The notes under the pieces: model-generated
Database searches by the model: none
The model's input: only the letters and a program-made list of their open reading frames with translations
Told to the model about the DNA's origin: nothing
Origin: a virus
Direction: 5' to 3' (one strand)
IMG/VR virus record: IMGVR_UViG_3300043119_000061
Location: 1 to 25,001 of that record
Length of the DNA stretch: 25,001 nt
Part shown: positions 11,627-24,779 of the stretch, one piece after another
How positions within the stretch are numbered: the first letter of the stretch is position 1
Layout of the letters: every line of letters starts with the position of its first letter
Made by a program: the position numbers and the translations under genes

Positions 11627-12368
11627 GTCTTTTTCTTCCGAAGTCGAGAACTGCGTCTTCAGCGCCAAGTTTGCGATTCCTATTATTGAAGTGGCGTACA
11701 TATTGTTGGCGAACCCGCATTTGATCTACAGGGCTGCCAGTTTGGTTCCAATATACCATAGCAGCTTGTGCGGCTTCAGCAAGTAACTGGGGGAAGTGTT
11801 TGGCGGGAAGATCAGGCACAAAAGAATCCGTCATGGACCAAGTAGGGATAGTCTGCCCAAAGGCTCTTACTTTCGATTCTTGGAGGGTATCATCCACACT
11901 AGAATCATATGAATCAAATACAACATGTACATCATCGAATAGCGTATACCATTGTGGGTGTTTATCGGAATAAACTGTCAAATACGAACCACTGTAGTCT
12001 TGTACAATAAGAGGATTATTGGAGTCTTGATAGTCGGATATCCGCATAATAAATTGTTCAGGAGTCAGGTAGACAACTTCTTCGTAAATGGGTTCAAGCG
12101 CCGTGCCTGTGTTGTACTGTATCCATTTGAAGTTATCTACATTGTCAGGAACCTTCATGTGTGTAGGTTTTGCCGTGTCACCAGAAGACTCAAGAGGAAT
12201 CAGATTATATTGATACGGTAATTCAATATTACCAATCATGGCATAGAAAGTGTTCTTAATCTCATTGGCAATTTGTTGAGATTGTACGGTGTCTCCAATG
12301 GAGTTGACTTCATCAGAGTTCATTTTATTGAGAATCTGTTGAGTCAGTTCAAGCAGAGTCATTTTCAT
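11601..12368 (-). CDS. Tail tubular protein A / head-tail adaptor (T7 gp11-like)
   Basis: 255 aa. The N-terminus (MTLLELTQQILNKMNSDEVNSIGDT) followed by QQIANEIKNTFYAMIGN is typical of podoviral gp11/TtpA proteins, which ring the portal and join head to tail. The C-terminal part (HFPQLLAEAAQAAMVYWNQTGSPVDQMRVRQQYVRHFNNRNRKL) also fits the family's helical end. The start overlaps the preceding Ig-like ORF by ATGA (4 nt), with GGAGG 12 nt upstream; a second in-frame ATG two codons on is possible. It lies directly before tail tubular B, separated only by the small basic ORF. Length is somewhat above T7 gp11 (196 aa). Confidence 0.85.
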   Translation of the reverse strand: MKMTLLELTQQILNKMNSDEVNSIGDTVQSQQIANEIKNTFYAMIGNIELPYQYNLIPLESSGDTAKPTHMKVPDNVDNFKWIQYNTGTALEPIYEEVVYLTPEQFIMRISDYQDSNNPLIVQDYSGSYLTVYSDKHPQWYTLFDDVHVVFDSYDSSVDDTLQESKVRAFGQTIPTWSMTDSFVPDLPAKHFPQLLAEAAQAAMVYWNQTGSPVDQMRVRQQYVRHFNNRNRKLGAEDAVLDFGRKRHVSSSVGR

Positions 12369-12745
12369 GGTATGTACGCGCCTCCGCTAGTTCTTGTTAC
12401 AATTATTTCAATATTTACTATTGCACTTCTACCTGCACTATCCGTAGCCGTACCAGTGAGAATGCCGGTTGCTCGGTCCCCATCATAGACTACCGTAGAA
12501 TATGTAACATTTGTCGTATCTGCTGCGGGGCTTACTGGAGCCAGATTAAACTGATCATCACTCCAAGTGTAGGTAACTGCACCAATAGCTCCGGTGGGAG
12601 TCATGACAAAGTTGGTACTCAGAGTACCCGAAGTACTGCCTACGTCTTCTGTCCAACTTGTTGGGGTAGCAGAAACGGAGAAAGCAGCTGTGGTCGCACT
12701 GGCTGGATGAAGGATTGCACTAAACAATTCCTGGCCCCACGGCAA
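12365..12745 (-). CDS. Ig-like/beta-sandwich domain ORF in the +1 frame after the tail fibre
   Basis: A frame of up to 126 codons. The sequence is Ser/Thr/Ala-rich with an Ig-like or cadherin-like pattern: SVSATPTSWTEDVGSTSGTLSTN, then GAIGAVTYTWSDD, then ATGILTGTATDSAGRSAIVNIEIIVTR. It lacks an ATG. Candidate starts are TTG 12745 or CTG 12757, both inside the tail-fibre gene, with an AAGGAGG at 12761-12767 at poor spacing. The frame is +1 relative to the fibre gene and overlaps its end by 26 nt, so expression as a frameshifted C-terminal extension of the fibre is an alternative. It ends in an ATGA overlap with tail tubular protein A. Phage Ig-like domains usually decorate virions and may bind surface sugars. 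Coding is likely; the mode of translation is uncertain. Confidence 0.65.
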   Translation of the reverse strand: MPWGQELFSAILHPASATTAAFSVSATPTSWTEDVGSTSGTLSTNFVMTPTGAIGAVTYTWSDDQFNLAPVSPAADTTNVTYSTVVYDGDRATGILTGTATDSAGRSAIVNIEIIVTRTSGGAYIP

Positions 12746-13529
12746 ACCATGTATCAGATGCCTCCTTAATGAGCGTCACAACGCCACCAGCAGCGATTGT
12801 GCCGTCAGCGCTAGTGGTACTGCCATTAATGTACAAGGCCACTCCTAGGCCACGTGTAAGCGTTATAGCGCCTGCTCCAAAAGCATTGCGGATAGTGTAC
12901 TGGGTGCCCACCGGATGTGCAATGGAAGATTCAGGGTTAATGATGTAGGCATGAGCAGCAGCATCAGTGTGGTATACGATTGTTGGGGTTGTAGGAACTG
13001 GCAAGAAATAGTCGGCATTCTGCAAGCTGATAGAATACAGATAAAAGCGAGTATCGTCCCCTGCAGCTACCGTTCCAGCAGCGGTGCCTACATTTTTAGT
13101 AGAAGCATCACCCAGTAGAAGCGTATTACGAATGTCTCCGACTGTCGCATCATCGAGAATAGTCCGAGCAGCCGTAGTCACGACTGAAGAATCTAATGAC
13201 CATACAGTACCTGAACTTGATACGACAACATCCCCTTTGTCCCCATCAGTGACGGAACCAGAAGGACCTTGGATACCTTGTGGGCCTTGGATTCCATCCA
13301 CTACATCAATAAGACGAACAGCGTCGTTGTCATCTACGGGGGCACCAAGGTTAAGAAGACGGTTAGAATTTAAATCAATATTAGCATTCATAGTATTAGG
13401 GGTCTGGCCATTACGTGCCAGAACTTGCTCACTGAAAGTCTCCAGTGTCGCAGCCCACTCGTTAAGAGCTTGAATAGCGGACTCTTGATTTGTTAACGAG
13501 GTAAGGCGTGGTAGAGTAACCTTAGTCAT
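12720..13529 (-). CDS. Tail fibre with collagen-like segment
   Basis: 269 aa. The N-terminal module (VTLPRLTSLTNQESAIQALNEWAATLETFSEQVLARNG) leads into the phage fibre motif IDLNSNRLLNLGAP (about 51-64), which also occurs in the tail spike of this window, and likely anchors the fibre to the tail tube. A short collagen-like Gly-X-Y run follows (GIQGPQGIQGPSG, 79-91), then GDVVVSSSGTVWSLDSS, and a beta-rich C-terminus (GTQYTIRNAFGAGAITLTRG, GGVVTLIKEASDTWFAVGPG) of a type common at the end of phage fibres. ATG directly follows the TAA of the preceding gene, with GAAGG about 11 nt upstream. The protein should form trimers and bind a host receptor. The fibre class is firm; receptor specificity is unknown. 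Confidence 0.85.
   Translation of the reverse strand: MTKVTLPRLTSLTNQESAIQALNEWAATLETFSEQVLARNGQTPNTMNANIDLNSNRLLNLGAPVDDNDAVRLIDVVDGIQGPQGIQGPSGSVTDGDKGDVVVSSSGTVWSLDSSVVTTAARTILDDATVGDIRNTLLLGDASTKNVGTAAGTVAAGDDTRFYLYSISLQNADYFLPVPTTPTIVYHTDAAAHAYIINPESSIAHPVGTQYTIRNAFGAGAITLTRGLGVALYINGSTTSADGTIAAGGVVTLIKEASDTWFAVGPGIV
12761..12767 (-). promoter_or_regulatory. Internal Shine-Dalgarno-like AAGGAGG near the 3' end of the fibre gene
   Basis: A strong anti-rRNA match (AAGGAGG on the minus strand). It lies 15 nt before TTG 12745 and 3 nt before CTG 12757 of the Ig-like ORF. It could start that ORF or stimulate frameshifting, or be chance within codons for Lys-Glu-Ala. Confidence 0.4.
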
Positions 13530-16896: not shown

Positions 16897-18710
16897 TGCG
16901 GGGGCATAGCCATTGTAGCAGGTTGTGCAGCTTGGCTACCTTGTGGTCCCGGAGGTGCTCCAGGAATCTGGTTGGCAGGTGTTCCCTTATCCATGAGGAT
17001 TTGCTGACCAGTAGACTGCATTTCTTGCGTCTCAATCGACTCCATAACACGGATGTTATCTTCGACGAGATCATAATGTTCAAAACCAAGCAGGGTTTCA
17101 ATGAGATCAGCCATACGTTTACCAGAGAAGTGAACATTGACAGATGGGTCTTGGTAAAGAGCAGAAGCAGACAGTTGGGTCAGGTTCTGCAGCATGTTAG
17201 CATTACGAGCAAAACGACGAGCACCAATGGGACGGAGCTTACCAACAGCCACGATATCATCACGGGTAACCGTGAGGAACGAATCAAAGTTAAAGTCTTC
17301 GTCTTCTACGCGAATGGTCTCAGCAAGACCAATGTTACGGCGAGCAGCTTCAAACATGGCATTCAGCGCGGGTTCCATGAAGACTTCTTCAAAGTACGCT
17401 GTTTTGTTAATAAAGACCTTGTTGCGGGCTTGGTCCATGATCTGGACCTCGTAGGCAGTCTTCTCACCAGGAGTGCGGAAACCAGTGGACTCAGCAGGAG
17501 CGCCAGCCATCATTTCCATTTTCTGTTCATACATGGCAATCTGCGTATCGAGGTGCAGAATTGTTGAGTCAGGGTGCATGAACTCTACATCACCTTCCTC
17601 GGAGACATAGATACGCTCGTTAGGTCCATAATTGAAATGCTCAACCGCCCCTTTGATTTTGAGGACAGGTTGGACAATCATGTCCATGCCGTCAGCCTTA
17701 GTATTTTCCAAGTGGTTAATGCGATACTGCATCCCCACAATGTTATCAAGCGGACCCATAGCGTAAAGGTTGTCCGGCCTGACTCTCCAACCAGCATGGA
17801 AGAACGGGGCCTTCCCAAACCAATTGTTTAATTCTACTTTGCGAATAATGTAGCAGCGATCAACCACAGTGATGCAGTGATTACGATAAAGTTTATCTTC
17901 ATCTTTGTCATAAATATCTCCGTAGAAGTCTAATAGTTCTACGGTGTCTGAATTCAGATACTCTTCCCAAGAACTAAAACCATCAACCTCAAACTGGGAG
18001 TTCTTGTCTACTTGACCCATTGAAGTAGTAGCTTTTTTACGAAGAGCTGTGACTTTCTTAAACACATCTTCGAGATAGGCTTTCTCCGGGTTATCTTCGA
18101 TCATTGCACGAAGATCGCCCAAAGTCATCAGGGATCGGATAATTTTAGGAGTATCTTCAAATCGAGCAGCAGTAGGATCAAACACGATATCTTCAGGGCT
18201 AATGCGAACCAGTCGAGGCCCCACATAGACTTGGTGTGTTTCACCCGAGTTCTCATTTTTTACTTTCTGGTTTCGGTATTCAATAGTGGCAAAACAATTA
18301 CCATAATCAATAAAGTCCAGAATACACTTGTTGAGTTCAACATTGAATTTGCTCTGACGGAGTTTGTTACGCATATACGCCGTGATGACGTTACGTTTTT
18401 CTTTGGTTTGGCTAGATTCGTCATCGCCCTCCCATGTGATAGCATTATCATTGGGGTAAAGGGCGGCGATGTAGTTAGCATAGAGTACATCACGAATCTG
18501 ACAGATTTTTGGAATGTGAACAGAGTTCTTCCAAGGGAGGTTACCCATGGAGGTCGTGCGAGTATCCGTAGCGAAGATGTAGTTACGAAGTTCTTTTACA
18601 ATCTGCTTCCAACCACTACGACGGGACTCCCATTCGACAAAGCGCATGGCAATGTTGTTTGCCAGACGATCACCATCAGCCCATTCCTGAAAATCAATTG
18701 TTTCGCTCAT
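16893..18710 (-). CDS. Portal (head-tail connector) protein
   Basis: 605 aa. The N-terminal part contains WKQIVKELRNYIFATDTRTT and NLPWKNSVHIPKICQIRDVLYANYIAALYPND, followed by DYGNCFATIEYRNQ and the strongly portal-like LVRISPEDIVFDPTAARFEDTPKIIRS. The middle carries GPLDNIVGMQYRINHLENTKADGMDMIVQP, and the long helical region has GFRTPGEKTAYEVQIMDQ. The C-terminus is Pro/Gln/Ala-rich and probably disordered. The start overlaps the terminase stop by ATGA. The product forms the dodecameric ring through which DNA is packaged and released. It is somewhat longer than T7 gp8 (536 aa). The assignment is secure from motif order and neighbours. Confidence 0.92.
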   Translation of the reverse strand: MSETIDFQEWADGDRLANNIAMRFVEWESRRSGWKQIVKELRNYIFATDTRTTSMGNLPWKNSVHIPKICQIRDVLYANYIAALYPNDNAITWEGDDESSQTKEKRNVITAYMRNKLRQSKFNVELNKCILDFIDYGNCFATIEYRNQKVKNENSGETHQVYVGPRLVRISPEDIVFDPTAARFEDTPKIIRSLMTLGDLRAMIEDNPEKAYLEDVFKKVTALRKKATTSMGQVDKNSQFEVDGFSSWEEYLNSDTVELLDFYGDIYDKDEDKLYRNHCITVVDRCYIIRKVELNNWFGKAPFFHAGWRVRPDNLYAMGPLDNIVGMQYRINHLENTKADGMDMIVQPVLKIKGAVEHFNYGPNERIYVSEEGDVEFMHPDSTILHLDTQIAMYEQKMEMMAGAPAESTGFRTPGEKTAYEVQIMDQARNKVFINKTAYFEEVFMEPALNAMFEAARRNIGLAETIRVEDEDFNFDSFLTVTRDDIVAVGKLRPIGARRFARNANMLQNLTQLSASALYQDPSVNVHFSGKRMADLIETLLGFEHYDLVEDNIRVMESIETQEMQSTGQQILMDKGTPANQIPGAPPGPQGSQAAQPATMAMPPQ

Positions 18711-20296
18711 CTACCGCCTAAGCCTCCAAACCGAGGATGGCCAGATAATTGGAATATGTTTGTGTCAATGTTACTCGCTATATTTCTTGAGGGGGCTACT
18801 GCGTATTGCATGGCATTAGCCACAGCGTCTTTGCAGTCATCGTGAGGAGGGAACTGAAGAACCAGCTCATCTTCCAGTGTTTGGATATTGCCGTGTCTAG
18901 CATGCCAGACGTGGTTGTTCATGTAACGGGGGTCAAGGATAGCCTTGAGACGTTCTTGCTTAGTACCATCGTGTTTAGTCGGTTTGACCTCTTCGATGGA
19001 GAGCATAATGCCATTGGGCTTCAGGTAGGATTCTTTAAGTTCATTAATAAGGGGGACTGCACCCGAAACGGCTTCAGCAATTAGCTTTTTGAAGTCCCAT
19101 TTACGATGTAATTCAAGTAGGTGTTCAAAGTGCTCTTTAATGGACCGGGTCTTGTACCTGTCCACTTCCAGAACGTAGTAATTGCGGTCCGAGTCAATCC
19201 CAACAATAGCAATAGCCGTATAGTCTGAGCGGATAGATAGAGTGTAACTAAAGTCAACAGCGGCAGTAATATTAATACGTTTACCATTTATATACCAATA
19301 ACCAGCAGAGTGTTTTAAATGAAGGGGGTCAAAATATTGGAAGTATGACCTAGAGATAGCACCTTCAGTTGCGGCATTGGGCTTGTTGTAGTACTGAGCA
19401 AAAAATTGGGTTTTGTCTAAGTACTTGGCAAATTTAGTCTGCCAAATCTTCTGATCAAATCCATACCATTTGCCGTCTTCACGCTGTTGACGGGGCCACA
19501 GGAATTGACCTGTGCCATCACCACGATCTTCTACTTCACGTTCAAATACTTCATAGACGGGTTCCTTATCTAGTTCATTACCTTCGTCGTCGAAGATACT
19601 GACAGTCATGGTCAGCATTTCGTTATAGAGGTCTTTAGGGTGGTAACGGGTACCAACAACTACTTCACGGGCCTCAGCGCCTTCGATAGACGCAAGGAAC
19701 GAGTATTGGCGGGCAACCTTGGAGCGCCCTTCTTCAGTATAAGCATTGTCTCCGGTGACTACGTCATCAAGAACAGCAATGTCAAAGTGAAGACCAACGA
19801 TAGAAGTGGTTAGACCGGCGACCATTATTGAGGGATCACGGATGCCTTCTTCCGCACGCTTAGGGTGGTCTACGGCAATTTCCGTAGTGGTCCACCGTTT
19901 ACGCTTACCTTCTTCTTCATTGATCATTTCAGGCCAATAACGCCTATAGATCGATGAAGTCATAATGTCTTTAATGAAACCGAGTTGTTTTTCGGCCAGA
20001 GTCGATGTGTTAGAAATATATAGAATACGTTTAGTCGGGTCTTTAGTAAGTTCCCAGATGGCCAAGAAAGCCGCATAACGGGACTTACAATGATCTCGGG
20101 GCAGGAGGATAAGTTGGTGGTCCGAGCGACTGGACCGGGTCATCCATTGGCACAGTTCCTGGTGGATCATACCAAAGACGTTCTTAGGCACTACCAAACG
20201 AATAAAGTACTCGAGATTGGCTTCAGCAGCCTCTCGAGTTTCCCGAATTTTGCGTTCGGATTCCGTCTCTTCTGTTTTAGTAGTAGTCCTAGCCAC
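18707..20296 (-). CDS. terL: Terminase large subunit (packaging ATPase and nuclease)
   Basis: 529 aa starting at GTG 20296 in a TAGTG overlap with the HNH gene. The ATPase half shows a variant Walker A, LPRDHCKS (65-72, with Lys71), a Walker B IAVLDD (173-178), and the coupling motif GTRYHP (215-220). The RNase H-like nuclease half shows AAVDFSYT with D348, an acidic residue at E408 (LIAEAV), and D487/D490 near the C-terminus (DDCKDAVANA). These are the expected metal-binding positions. The enzyme cuts concatemers and drives DNA into the procapsid. Immediate neighbours are an HNH endonuclease upstream and the portal downstream. The assignment is firm; the packaging type (cos, pac or direct repeat) cannot be told by eye. 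Confidence 0.95.
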   Translation of the reverse strand: MARTTTKTEETESERKIRETREAAEANLEYFIRLVVPKNVFGMIHQELCQWMTRSSRSDHQLILLPRDHCKSRYAAFLAIWELTKDPTKRILYISNTSTLAEKQLGFIKDIMTSSIYRRYWPEMINEEEGKRKRWTTTEIAVDHPKRAEEGIRDPSIMVAGLTTSIVGLHFDIAVLDDVVTGDNAYTEEGRSKVARQYSFLASIEGAEAREVVVGTRYHPKDLYNEMLTMTVSIFDDEGNELDKEPVYEVFEREVEDRGDGTGQFLWPRQQREDGKWYGFDQKIWQTKFAKYLDKTQFFAQYYNKPNAATEGAISRSYFQYFDPLHLKHSAGYWYINGKRINITAAVDFSYTLSIRSDYTAIAIVGIDSDRNYYVLEVDRYKTRSIKEHFEHLLELHRKWDFKKLIAEAVSGAVPLINELKESYLKPNGIMLSIEEVKPTKHDGTKQERLKAILDPRYMNNHVWHARHGNIQTLEDELVLQFPPHDDCKDAVANAMQYAVAPSRNIASNIDTNIFQLSGHPRFGGLGGR

Positions 20297-22504: not shown

Positions 22505-24559
22505 TTAGACCGGAGTATTGACTAGGGTGCCCGCACCATCAACCCAAGTGGATGTATCAACAGCGCCAACTGCCCAGACGGGTTTGTTAACGGTAGAATT
22601 CCAAACTTGAGTGCCGGCAGTTTTTTGAGATGTGTTGACAACGTGTGTTTTGTCGTTGAGCTGAGTGCTGGTGAATGAAATATTGTGAATACGCTTCTGA
22701 GCATCAACAATTGTAGTTCCGTACATGTTGAGTCCGACAGAATAGATCAGACCCATGACTTCCGTTATTGTGGTTGAGCCATCTGGGCACAGGAAGAAGT
22801 AACGTCCTGCGGCCATATCGGTGCTGCTAGGGGAAGCAGTACGAATAAAGACGGTATCACGAGCAGCTTCGCGCATGGAACCAGAAGCCTGGGCCAGCCA
22901 GATGTGCCGACCTACTTCATCGTATTGGACAGCGTTAGCTGGGACAGCCGCGGTACCACGGGCTTTTTGCATACCATGAGCAGCACACGAGGCATCGTTT
23001 GAGTATTTAGCGATACTGTCTGTGATGGCTGCATCAGCGACCATATAACGAGAAAGGGTAGTTGCACCCGAAGCAGACTGAGACAGGTTACCCGTTACGT
23101 TCAAGGCAGCGGAAATCTGTACGGCCCTGTCAAGAGTCCAAGTACCAGCGGCGTTGGATTCCAAACCACGTTTAACGTTGGCAGACATGGCCGGTTGAGT
23201 CGCGTATCCGATGTAGGTGTTACCCACGTCGTGCGTAACAAGAGTACCCGTAGATGTCCACGTAAGGACACCTGAGAGGTTTTGAACGTGACGGAAGTTG
23301 TTACCAGTGACAGCAATTTCGAGACCTGCCACAGCAGAAGAGAACTCTGCGAGTTTGATTACTTCAGTACCGTTAAGAGCCGTTCGTGCACAGAAGATGT
23401 CGTTGCCGACGATTGGGCTGGAACCCCAACCTGCTGTAGCAAATTCCATCTTGAGGCCGATAAGGGTGCCAGCGGTTGCTGTAGAACCTTCAGACGTGAT
23501 GTCAATGTGGTTACCGATAACGCGAGTACCGGCACAGAGTTGAAGGTACAGGTTGCCGAGGCCATCAGCCGAGTAGATTTGGTTGGCAATAAACTGAGCA
23601 CCGGCGGAACGTTCGCTACGGATGTTCCAGGTGCCGTTGATCTTACCATTGCCCCAGATGTTGCAGTTCTTGACTTCCCAGTCTGACATTTTGCTGGAGT
23701 GGTCTTTGATGTACAGACCTTCCGAGCCGCAATCAAGGAACGTGCATTTGTCAAAGATGTTGTTGGCCATGTTGCCCGATGCACCAAGAGTGCCATCGCT
23801 GTTGGCAGCAGTGAGAAGAAGGCCATACCTGCGGGCCGACCAGACTTGAACGTTGGTCAGACGAGATTGATAGGTTTTGAGAACAAAGGCATCGCAGTCA
23901 ACGGTTTGGTTTGTGCGGTTGCCGTCGATACGGAAGTTAGAGAACTCAGAGCCATAGGCTGCCCAAGAGGTGTTGGTGATGTAGTGGGAGCTGGCAAGGA
24001 CAAAGGTGTTGGCGTTGTTAGGGAGCTTGAGGATGGACTTGTCGTGTTCCACACCTTCAATGGCGGTATCTTGCGGAAGGCTGAGTGCTTTGCAGTAGAT
24101 GGTAGCAGCGGGGAGCATGAGCTTACCACCGGAGGCAGCGTCGAGGGCTGCTTGCATTTGAGTGGATTGGTCTGCGACAGAGGCAATGTCTACGTAGTCT
24201 GCTGCATAGACAATCTTGGAGCGCGTGGTCATGGACTCGATATTGTCGATCCATTCAGAGGCCGTCTTGGTGACTGCCGTGCCCGAGGTGATATTCTGAC
24301 TGGAGAAGTCAATGGTGACTTCCAGATCGGTTACCAGTGAATCAACATACTGCTTGGTAGCGGCGTTGGAGGGCCCAGTGGGGGTGCCCAGGTTGATGAG
24401 CTGATTGGAGTTCATGTCCAAATCAACTTCCATGGTACCGCCAGCGGACTCGGAGACGGTATCGGCAAAGCCGGCTTCAATGGCGTCGAAGTTGCTATTC
24501 ATCTTTGTGGCGGATGTATAGGCAGATTCGATGTTATCAAGGGTGACGGGAGTGGCCAG
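22505..24559 (-). CDS. Tail spike with right-handed beta-helix (probable non-AUG start)
   Basis: The first ATG is at 24502 (665 aa), but the frame stays open upstream to a TAA at 24574-24572. The extra residues (LATPVTLDNIESAYTSATK) complete a typical fibre N-terminal module that parallels the other tail fibre here. CTG 24559 has AAAGGA with an 8-nt gap, while ATG 24502 has none, so 684 aa from CTG is preferred; ATT 24568 is too close to the site. The anchor VDLDMNSNQLINLGTPTGPSNAATKQYVDSL is followed by a pectate-lyase-like beta-helix with repeated N/G/I strands (NIFDKCTFLDCGSEGLYIKDHSSKMSDWEVKNCNIWGNG, IANQIYSADGLGNLYLQLCAGTRVIGNHIDI). The C-terminal part may trimerise. It is the first gene after the promoter and likely the receptor-binding or capsule-depolymerising spike; catalytic residues are not identified. 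Confidence 0.85.
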   Translation of the reverse strand: MATPVTLDNIESAYTSATKMNSNFDAIEAGFADTVSESAGGTMEVDLDMNSNQLINLGTPTGPSNAATKQYVDSLVTDLEVTIDFSSQNITSGTAVTKTASEWIDNIESMTTRSKIVYAADYVDIASVADQSTQMQAALDAASGGKLMLPAATIYCKALSLPQDTAIEGVEHDKSILKLPNNANTFVLASSHYITNTSWAAYGSEFSNFRIDGNRTNQTVDCDAFVLKTYQSRLTNVQVWSARRYGLLLTAANSDGTLGASGNMANNIFDKCTFLDCGSEGLYIKDHSSKMSDWEVKNCNIWGNGKINGTWNIRSERSAGAQFIANQIYSADGLGNLYLQLCAGTRVIGNHIDITSEGSTATAGTLIGLKMEFATAGWGSSPIVGNDIFCARTALNGTEVIKLAEFSSAVAGLEIAVTGNNFRHVQNLSGVLTWTSTGTLVTHDVGNTYIGYATQPAMSANVKRGLESNAAGTWTLDRAVQISAALNVTGNLSQSASGATTLSRYMVADAAITDSIAKYSNDASCAAHGMQKARGTAAVPANAVQYDEVGRHIWLAQASGSMREAARDTVFIRTASPSSTDMAAGRYFFLCPDGSTTITEVMGLIYSVGLNMYGTTIVDAQKRIHNISFTSTQLNDKTHVVNTSQKTAGTQVWNSTVNKPVWAVGAVDTSTWVDGAGTLVNTPV

Positions 24560-24620
24560 GGGGATAATCCTTTATAATAATATTATATATACATTTAATA
24601 ATTAGTTAGTTATATACTAT

Positions 24621-24649: not shown

Positions 24650-24715
24650 ATTATACAATATTCTTTAACACTTGTCAACAATTATTTTTATATATTTTTA
24701 TTTTATTTATAAAAC
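24650..24715 (-). promoter_or_regulatory. Consensus sigma70 promoter with UP-like element for the virion operon
   Basis: On the minus strand TTGACA (24678-24673) is separated by exactly 17 bases from TATAAT (24655-24650), a perfect match to the bacterial housekeeping consensus. The 35 bases upstream are nearly pure A/T with A- and T-runs, as in UP elements bound by the RNA polymerase alpha subunit. The start of transcription should be near 24643, giving a leader of about 84 nt before the CTG of the spike. No other gene intervenes. Confidence 0.85.
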
Positions 24716-24720
24716 ATGTC

Positions 24721-24779
24721 AGCGAGCCCGCAGGGCGAGCTCACCCCCGCCGGGTTAGGCGGTCCCCATTCCGTGGAAT
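24721..24779. repeat. GC-rich block with three short inverted repeats
   Basis: Abrupt GC-rich DNA next to AT-rich DNA. It holds GCCC-GCA-GGGC (24726-24736) flanked by direct repeats GCGAGC (24722-24727 and 24735-24740), CCGCC-6-GGCGG (24747-24762), and ATTCC-GT-GGAAT (24768-24779). Stems are short and no U-run follows on the plus strand. On the minus strand the A/T-rich promoter upstream region follows, so it could act as a barrier or terminator for transcription entering from the right, or be part of an origin. Confidence 0.5.

Follow-up and report, generated by a model that had tools for sequence, protein, structure and literature searches.

The window, that is, the entire virus record of 25,001 bases, carries a podovirus virion operon on the minus strand. 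The first gene of this operon (22505..24559, minus strand) encodes a tail spike or fibre of 684 codons, counted from a CTG codon, with a beta-helix-like body and a frame that is intact throughout; the body gives a match to Pfam PF13229 that is below the Pfam cut-off (E = 4.8e-4). The gene sits ahead of those for terminase, portal and capsid, and the terminase large subunit (TerL; 18707..20296, minus strand; phrog_38) served as the basis for finding relatives and for a tree. Upstream of the spike, at 24650..24678 (minus strand), there is a promoter-like TTGACA-17 nt-TATAAT, which matches the sigma-70 consensus at 12/12 positions and is the sole such match in a consensus scan in which promoter-like sites were no commoner in the region than in shuffles; about 85 nt of leader separate it from the CTG. 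The same scan placed a hairpin followed by a T-rich stretch, terminator-like and near chance number, upstream of the promoter at 24721..24745 (minus strand). The initial annotation had placed the spike at the head of a strongly transcribed operon, which would fit the TTGACA-17-TATAAT box, a sequence match. The leader also contains a minimal reading frame, ATG TAT ATA TAA (24583..24594, minus strand), which has no Shine-Dalgarno (SD) sequence and probably occurs by chance.

In the spike frame, the minus strand reads TAA AGG ATT ATC CCC CTG GCC ACT and runs on to ACA AAG ATG, the last codon (24500..24502, minus strand) being the first in-frame ATG; no ATG, GTG or TTG is present in this frame from the upstream TAA to the ATG at 24502. 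The proposed start is the CTG at 24557..24559 (minus strand), exactly 8 nt ahead of which lies the SD sequence AAAGGA (24568..24573, minus strand). Both this motif with its distance and the absence of an SD from the first ATG, which is preceded by ...acatccgccacaaag, had been noted earlier, and we find them as described. A start at the CTG gives the spike an N-terminal extension of 19 residues, LATPVTLDNIESAYTSATK (24503..24559, minus strand), the first of which is presumably fMet, and turns ATG 24502 into residue 20. The GC content is 49% in the 81 nt from the CTG on and 15% in the 80-nt upstream stretch that ends just before the last 10 nt ahead of the CTG, while folding at the spike start in the window shows nothing unusual relative to shuffles (z 0.01). 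The codon thus combines a single mismatch to AUG, an SD sequence at working distance and the lack of a canonical in-frame start near the conserved N-terminus, as is characteristic of near-cognate starts.

Homologues place the beginning of the protein at the same codon, where their own ATG aligns. In tblastn searches, most of the best matches set in between residues 1 and 5 of the CTG-started protein, and the spike matches the Zobellviridae-type fibre N-terminal domain significantly and from the profile start, phrog_18671 (E = 1.2e-9) aligning protein residues 3-74 with profile positions 2-75, and phrog_17587 (E = 1.8e-7) residues 5-77 with positions 3-76. In the seed alignment, MAKRPTLSDI of L010 and (L)ATPVTLDNI of the spike align without a gap, with the ATG of L010 at the CTG position. 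Scored against a profile of the family from which the window had been left out, the spike attains 69.0 bits when the 19-residue extension is included and 51.1 bits when it is not (+17.9), and none of 1000 shuffles of the extension comes up to 69.0 (mean 55.4, maximum 63.4 bits). An alignment of homologues only from MNSNFDAIE, the outcome that the initial annotation had named as speaking against an upstream start, was therefore not what the comparison returned; homologues begin at the CTG position, in line with the non-AUG start proposed there. On the basis of these alignments, spike translation very likely starts at CTG 24559.

The same data bear on internal initiation at ATG 24502, which would make the spike either alone or as a second, anchor-less form. 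This ATG is the first in the frame, but besides having no SD it encodes a residue that is not conserved (Met 20 aligns with Leu in L034, L038 and L041), and a protein starting there would lose residues common to the family. An AlphaFold2 model of spike residues 1-120, computed from 56 sequences and of modest quality (mean pLDDT 70.4, pTM 0.38), is best predicted over residues 1-30 (84-92 by blocks of ten) and has a predicted helix at residues 15-34 that includes Met 20, so that a start at ATG 24502 would, according to the model, cut both the helix and the conserved end. When the N-terminal alignment was searched against the PDB, only weak matches came back, the best being tail fibre 8vbx (E 0.0078). 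We regard internal initiation as extremely improbable, and ATG 24502 as probably an internal Met codon.

The CTG is not the only codon of its kind at this site. The first set of sequences read consisted of the three terminase relatives whose contigs reach the matching first fibre, and these have AAAGGA-8 nt-ATT TCC AAG CTA ACC (L041) and AAAGGA-8 nt-ATC GCC AAA CTT ACC (L034 and L038). A wider fibre scan, which took in 80 of 243 confirmed relatives, brought in one more contig, L122, which comes from another metagenome id and has ATC with AAAGGA 8 nt upstream. Four IMG/VR contigs under three IMG metagenome ids hence lack ATG, GTG and TTG at the aligned codon, and in the leader alignment their motif and spacing line up with AAAGGATTATCCCC CTG of the window. 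Between L041 and L034, L038 or L122, the first 20 codons differ by 11 or 12 third-position changes, compared with 7 or 8 for the first two codon positions combined, with no indel, whereas the leader has indels of 1 and 2 nt. The frame of L034 and L038 is open for 46 and 36 codons ahead of the ATC; upstream coding was rejected despite this open frame, the leader being taken as noncoding because of the 1- and 2-nt indels relative to L041. In L034, L038, L041 and L122, a leader of about 200 nt is conserved in sequence, with CTCAAGGGGTACCCGAG and GTCGACCC elements, and one part of it in L038 folds somewhat better than shuffles (z -2.05); it is possible that this leader is an RNA element.

These contigs also alter the standing of what the initial annotation called the dull alternative, namely that an error of sequencing or assembly has replaced the A of a true ATG beside a run of C. 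The surrounding TATCCCCCTGG is a homopolymer context, and the CTG itself is known from one metagenomic assembly only, since the contigs of the closest terminase relatives that could settle the matter, L028 (88%), L029 (73%) and L043 (65%), stop short of the fibre start codon, which L040 does not include either. Such an error is nevertheless very unlikely, because four other contigs are equally without a canonical codon there and have an identical SD and spacing; furthermore, the spike frame downstream is intact over all 684 codons. Additional searches returned no further case: a pattern scan for AAAGGA-N8-ATH gave 13 stretches, with a fibre reading only in the four contigs already known, and one for AAGGA-N8-CTG gave a single match (L214) with a 53-codon frame and nothing fibre-like. 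A search of the phage collection at blastn sensitivity gave no DNA match, and none of 17 pattern matches obtained by seeking relatives via the neighbouring 141-aa gene was confirmed.

For a census of start codons, a profile of the N-terminal domain was run over 201 sequences (the window and the loci, L001 left out); the seeds of the profile include the window and three near-cognate relatives, which aids their detection but does not set their codons. The 164 matches comprise 136 distinct ones, with 110 ATG starts (107 at the position, within one codon, and three at -3 or -4), nine TTG, two GTG, five without ATG, GTG or TTG (the window, L034, L038, L041 and L122) and ten partial matches that were not counted. 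A separate pass that included SD analysis (n = 124) found 108 ATG, nine TTG, two GTG, three ATC, one ATT and one CTG. AAGGA stands at 8 nt in all five near-cognate starters, with motif and spacing identical to those of the window, whereas an SD is present in 84 of the 108 ATG starters at widely scattered spacings. Most homologues use ATG, close ones included (L101, L065, ctOsX528); homologous fibres with TTG or GTG (L128, L142, L129, L143, L057, L112, L117) often have an SD 7-8 nt away.

First fibres seem to be enriched in weak starts. Near-cognate codons occur in 4/30 homologues with at least 150 nt upstream free of same-strand open reading frames (ORFs) and in 1/89 of the rest (Fisher p 0.014), and any non-ATG codon in 9/30 and 6/89, respectively (Fisher p 0.0023), with six homologues at contig edges left out, with p values that are optimistic (too small) because the census rows are related, and with L034 counted in the class with a gap under 150 nt because a probably spurious ORF, 60 aa or longer, lies upstream of it. 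Thirty-seven fibres with the N-terminal domain, that of the window included, lie upstream of TerL in the same orientation and within 9 kb, with four near-cognate starts (one CTG, one ATT, two ATC), two GTG, two TTG and 29 ATG; L122 is not among them because its TerL is outside the stretch read. A comparison of open frames of at least 110 codons in the window and in L034 singles out the first fibre: no other virion gene has its first ATG, GTG or TTG far within the conserved protein. In L034, the terminase has a GTG with its own SD, ahead of which the frame is already open for 25 codons.

The window encodes a second fibre with the same N-terminal domain (12720..13529, minus strand), which opens with MTKVTL and contains NSNRLLNLG, corresponding to NSNQLINLG in the spike; the VTL opening and the NSN-L-NLG motif reported for the other fibre are thus present. 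Second fibres with the shared domain start with ATG both here and in L034. A frameshift at the second fibre was a first thought that was dropped. After the second fibre there is an Ig-like-looking ORF (12365-12727, minus strand) without a match in Pfam or PHROG, whose likely start, TTG 12727, overlaps the fibre TAG, an arrangement suggestive of translational coupling. At the corresponding place in L034, an ORF with an ATG overlapping the stop codon matches the Hoc-like head decoration family phrog_2973 (4.6e-8).

A terminase tree of 43 rows unites the window with the ATC/ATT lineage in one larger group (support 84-94), but ATG and TTG relatives stand between the two, which amounts to at least two changes. 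Two origins are favoured on this tree; a single origin is not rejected by an AU test in which the unsampled kin of the window were kept with it (p-AU 0.064). A lower value against a single origin (p 2.65e-5) came from an ill-posed test that separated the window from its closest unsampled kin, and was discarded for this reason. The tree distance between the terminases of L034 and L041 is zero, yet the two contigs differ in their fibre start codon, ATC and ATT; their first-fibre N-termini are only about 83% identical, and the fibre end apparently undergoes faster evolution or recombination than the terminase in this pair.

Position, frame, homology, SD spacing and recurrence in other contigs can be read directly from the sequences; we infer in addition that the CTG initiates in the host, that its output is low and that this low output is kept by selection. 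Initiation would be of the ordinary SD-directed type, with the 30S subunit brought to CTG 24559 and the initiator tRNA forming a mismatch with the first base of the codon; the product would be fMet-ATPVTLDNIE..., with the N-terminal peptide (fM)ATPVTLDNIESAYTSATK, and the related lineage would use its ATC or ATT, likewise near-cognate, at the corresponding codon. With an SD at working distance, a near-cognate codon would be expected to initiate at a low but definite level. By the figures given within PMC11497404, the output from CUG in E. coli is 0.86% of that from AUG, and 0.024% of bacterial starts are CUG, and AUU, AUC and AUA are placed outside the "canonical" starts, which end in G, in a passage of PMC4611024. 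Since the spike comes first behind a consensus promoter, the poor codon would most likely act as a fixed brake, allowing much mRNA for the downstream virion genes and little spike. That a rare start tunes the adhesin dose, as the initial annotation had proposed, is plausible and would fit the published efficiencies. Our preferred reading, held with moderate confidence, is that the near-cognate start is genuine and keeps down the output of the gene at the head of a strongly transcribed virion operon; the near-cognate class needs a reason of its own, because GTG, TTG or a weak SD would also provide a brake on dose.

The start may instead be genuine and tolerated, not selected: if few spike copies are needed, decay of the start codon would be nearly neutral in a strongly transcribed gene. 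The use of three different codons (CTG, ATC and ATT), as well as the occurrence of ATG, TTG and GTG in relatives, is consistent with such drift, but switches of this kind are very rare genome-wide, with two changes to CUG and one to AUU from 61,358 ancestral AUG starts in the counts quoted from PMC5622118. Moreover, the SD and its 8-nt spacing are retained in every near-cognate starter, and we consider tolerance rather unlikely.

Still less probable is a start gated by initiation factors, in which spike output would follow the availability of IF3 or initiator tRNA during infection, by analogy with the AUU start reported for infC. IF3 discriminates against AUU and AUC starts, and all five codons are near-cognates other than GTG and TTG. 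A work cited by PMC4611024 describes AUU starts, in its title, as repressed by IF3. There is, however, no sign here of these phages altering IF3, and CUG may be discriminated otherwise than AUU and AUC. Returning to the fixed brake, a broader proposal can be put forward only tentatively: a podovirus lineage may repeatedly have placed its receptor-binding spike under a near-cognate start (CUG, AUC, AUU), with a consensus promoter and an SD fixed at 8 nt, as an evolved and possibly IF3-sensitive control of adhesin dose or timing that is hidden from gene callers that truncate the protein.

Taken together, the data describe a phage spike gene whose non-canonical start is real and recurrent; the position of this start is close to settled, unlike its proposed purpose. 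Starts at CUG, AUU or AUC are exceedingly rare and tend to be encountered in single genes; here, one virion gene is without a canonical start in five assemblies and two terminase lineages, and the availability of these together with ATG, GTG and TTG relatives for comparison makes the relation between start-codon quality and phage adhesin dose directly testable. Automatic annotation would drop 19 spike residues that are part of the predicted virion-attachment end, and their loss would spoil host-range and structure work.

The spike shares its N-terminal domain with the fibres or spikes of Zobellviridae podoviruses (PHROG 18671/17587; ICP2, PA11, SIO1, P12053L), including the pattern M-x-K/T-x-T-L...N-x-N-F-D-x-I-E...LDMNSN-x-I-x-NL, and the TerL of the window shows the corresponding Zobellviridae/Cobavirinae relationship, being 53-57% identical to Cobavirinae records (T5S1 57.1, CRP-5 54.6, P12053L 53.3%). 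An ATG start is usual in the family, though not defining for it: all 16 phage records read at the start (Cobavirinae, other Zobellviridae and ctOsX528) have ATG, in contrast to the CTG of the window. Most of the Cobavirinae records examined have another gene ahead of the fibre, whereas in the window the spike comes first behind the promoter. The infC gene reportedly has an AUU start under IF3 control and would resemble the spike in combining a near-cognate codon with an SD; its feedback logic, however, has no visible counterpart for the spike, which is a virion protein. Open-licence PMC full text yielded no title or abstract reporting CUG, AUU or AUC starts for phage fibres, which is weak evidence of absence. 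A mild parallel may be drawn with the tail spike gene 21 of SPP1, which has a UUG start and is described in a section of PMC6316719 as the sole SPP1 gene of known function without AUG; UUG, however, is a canonical start with 29.8% of AUG output, compared with near 1% for CUG, by the values given within PMC11497404.
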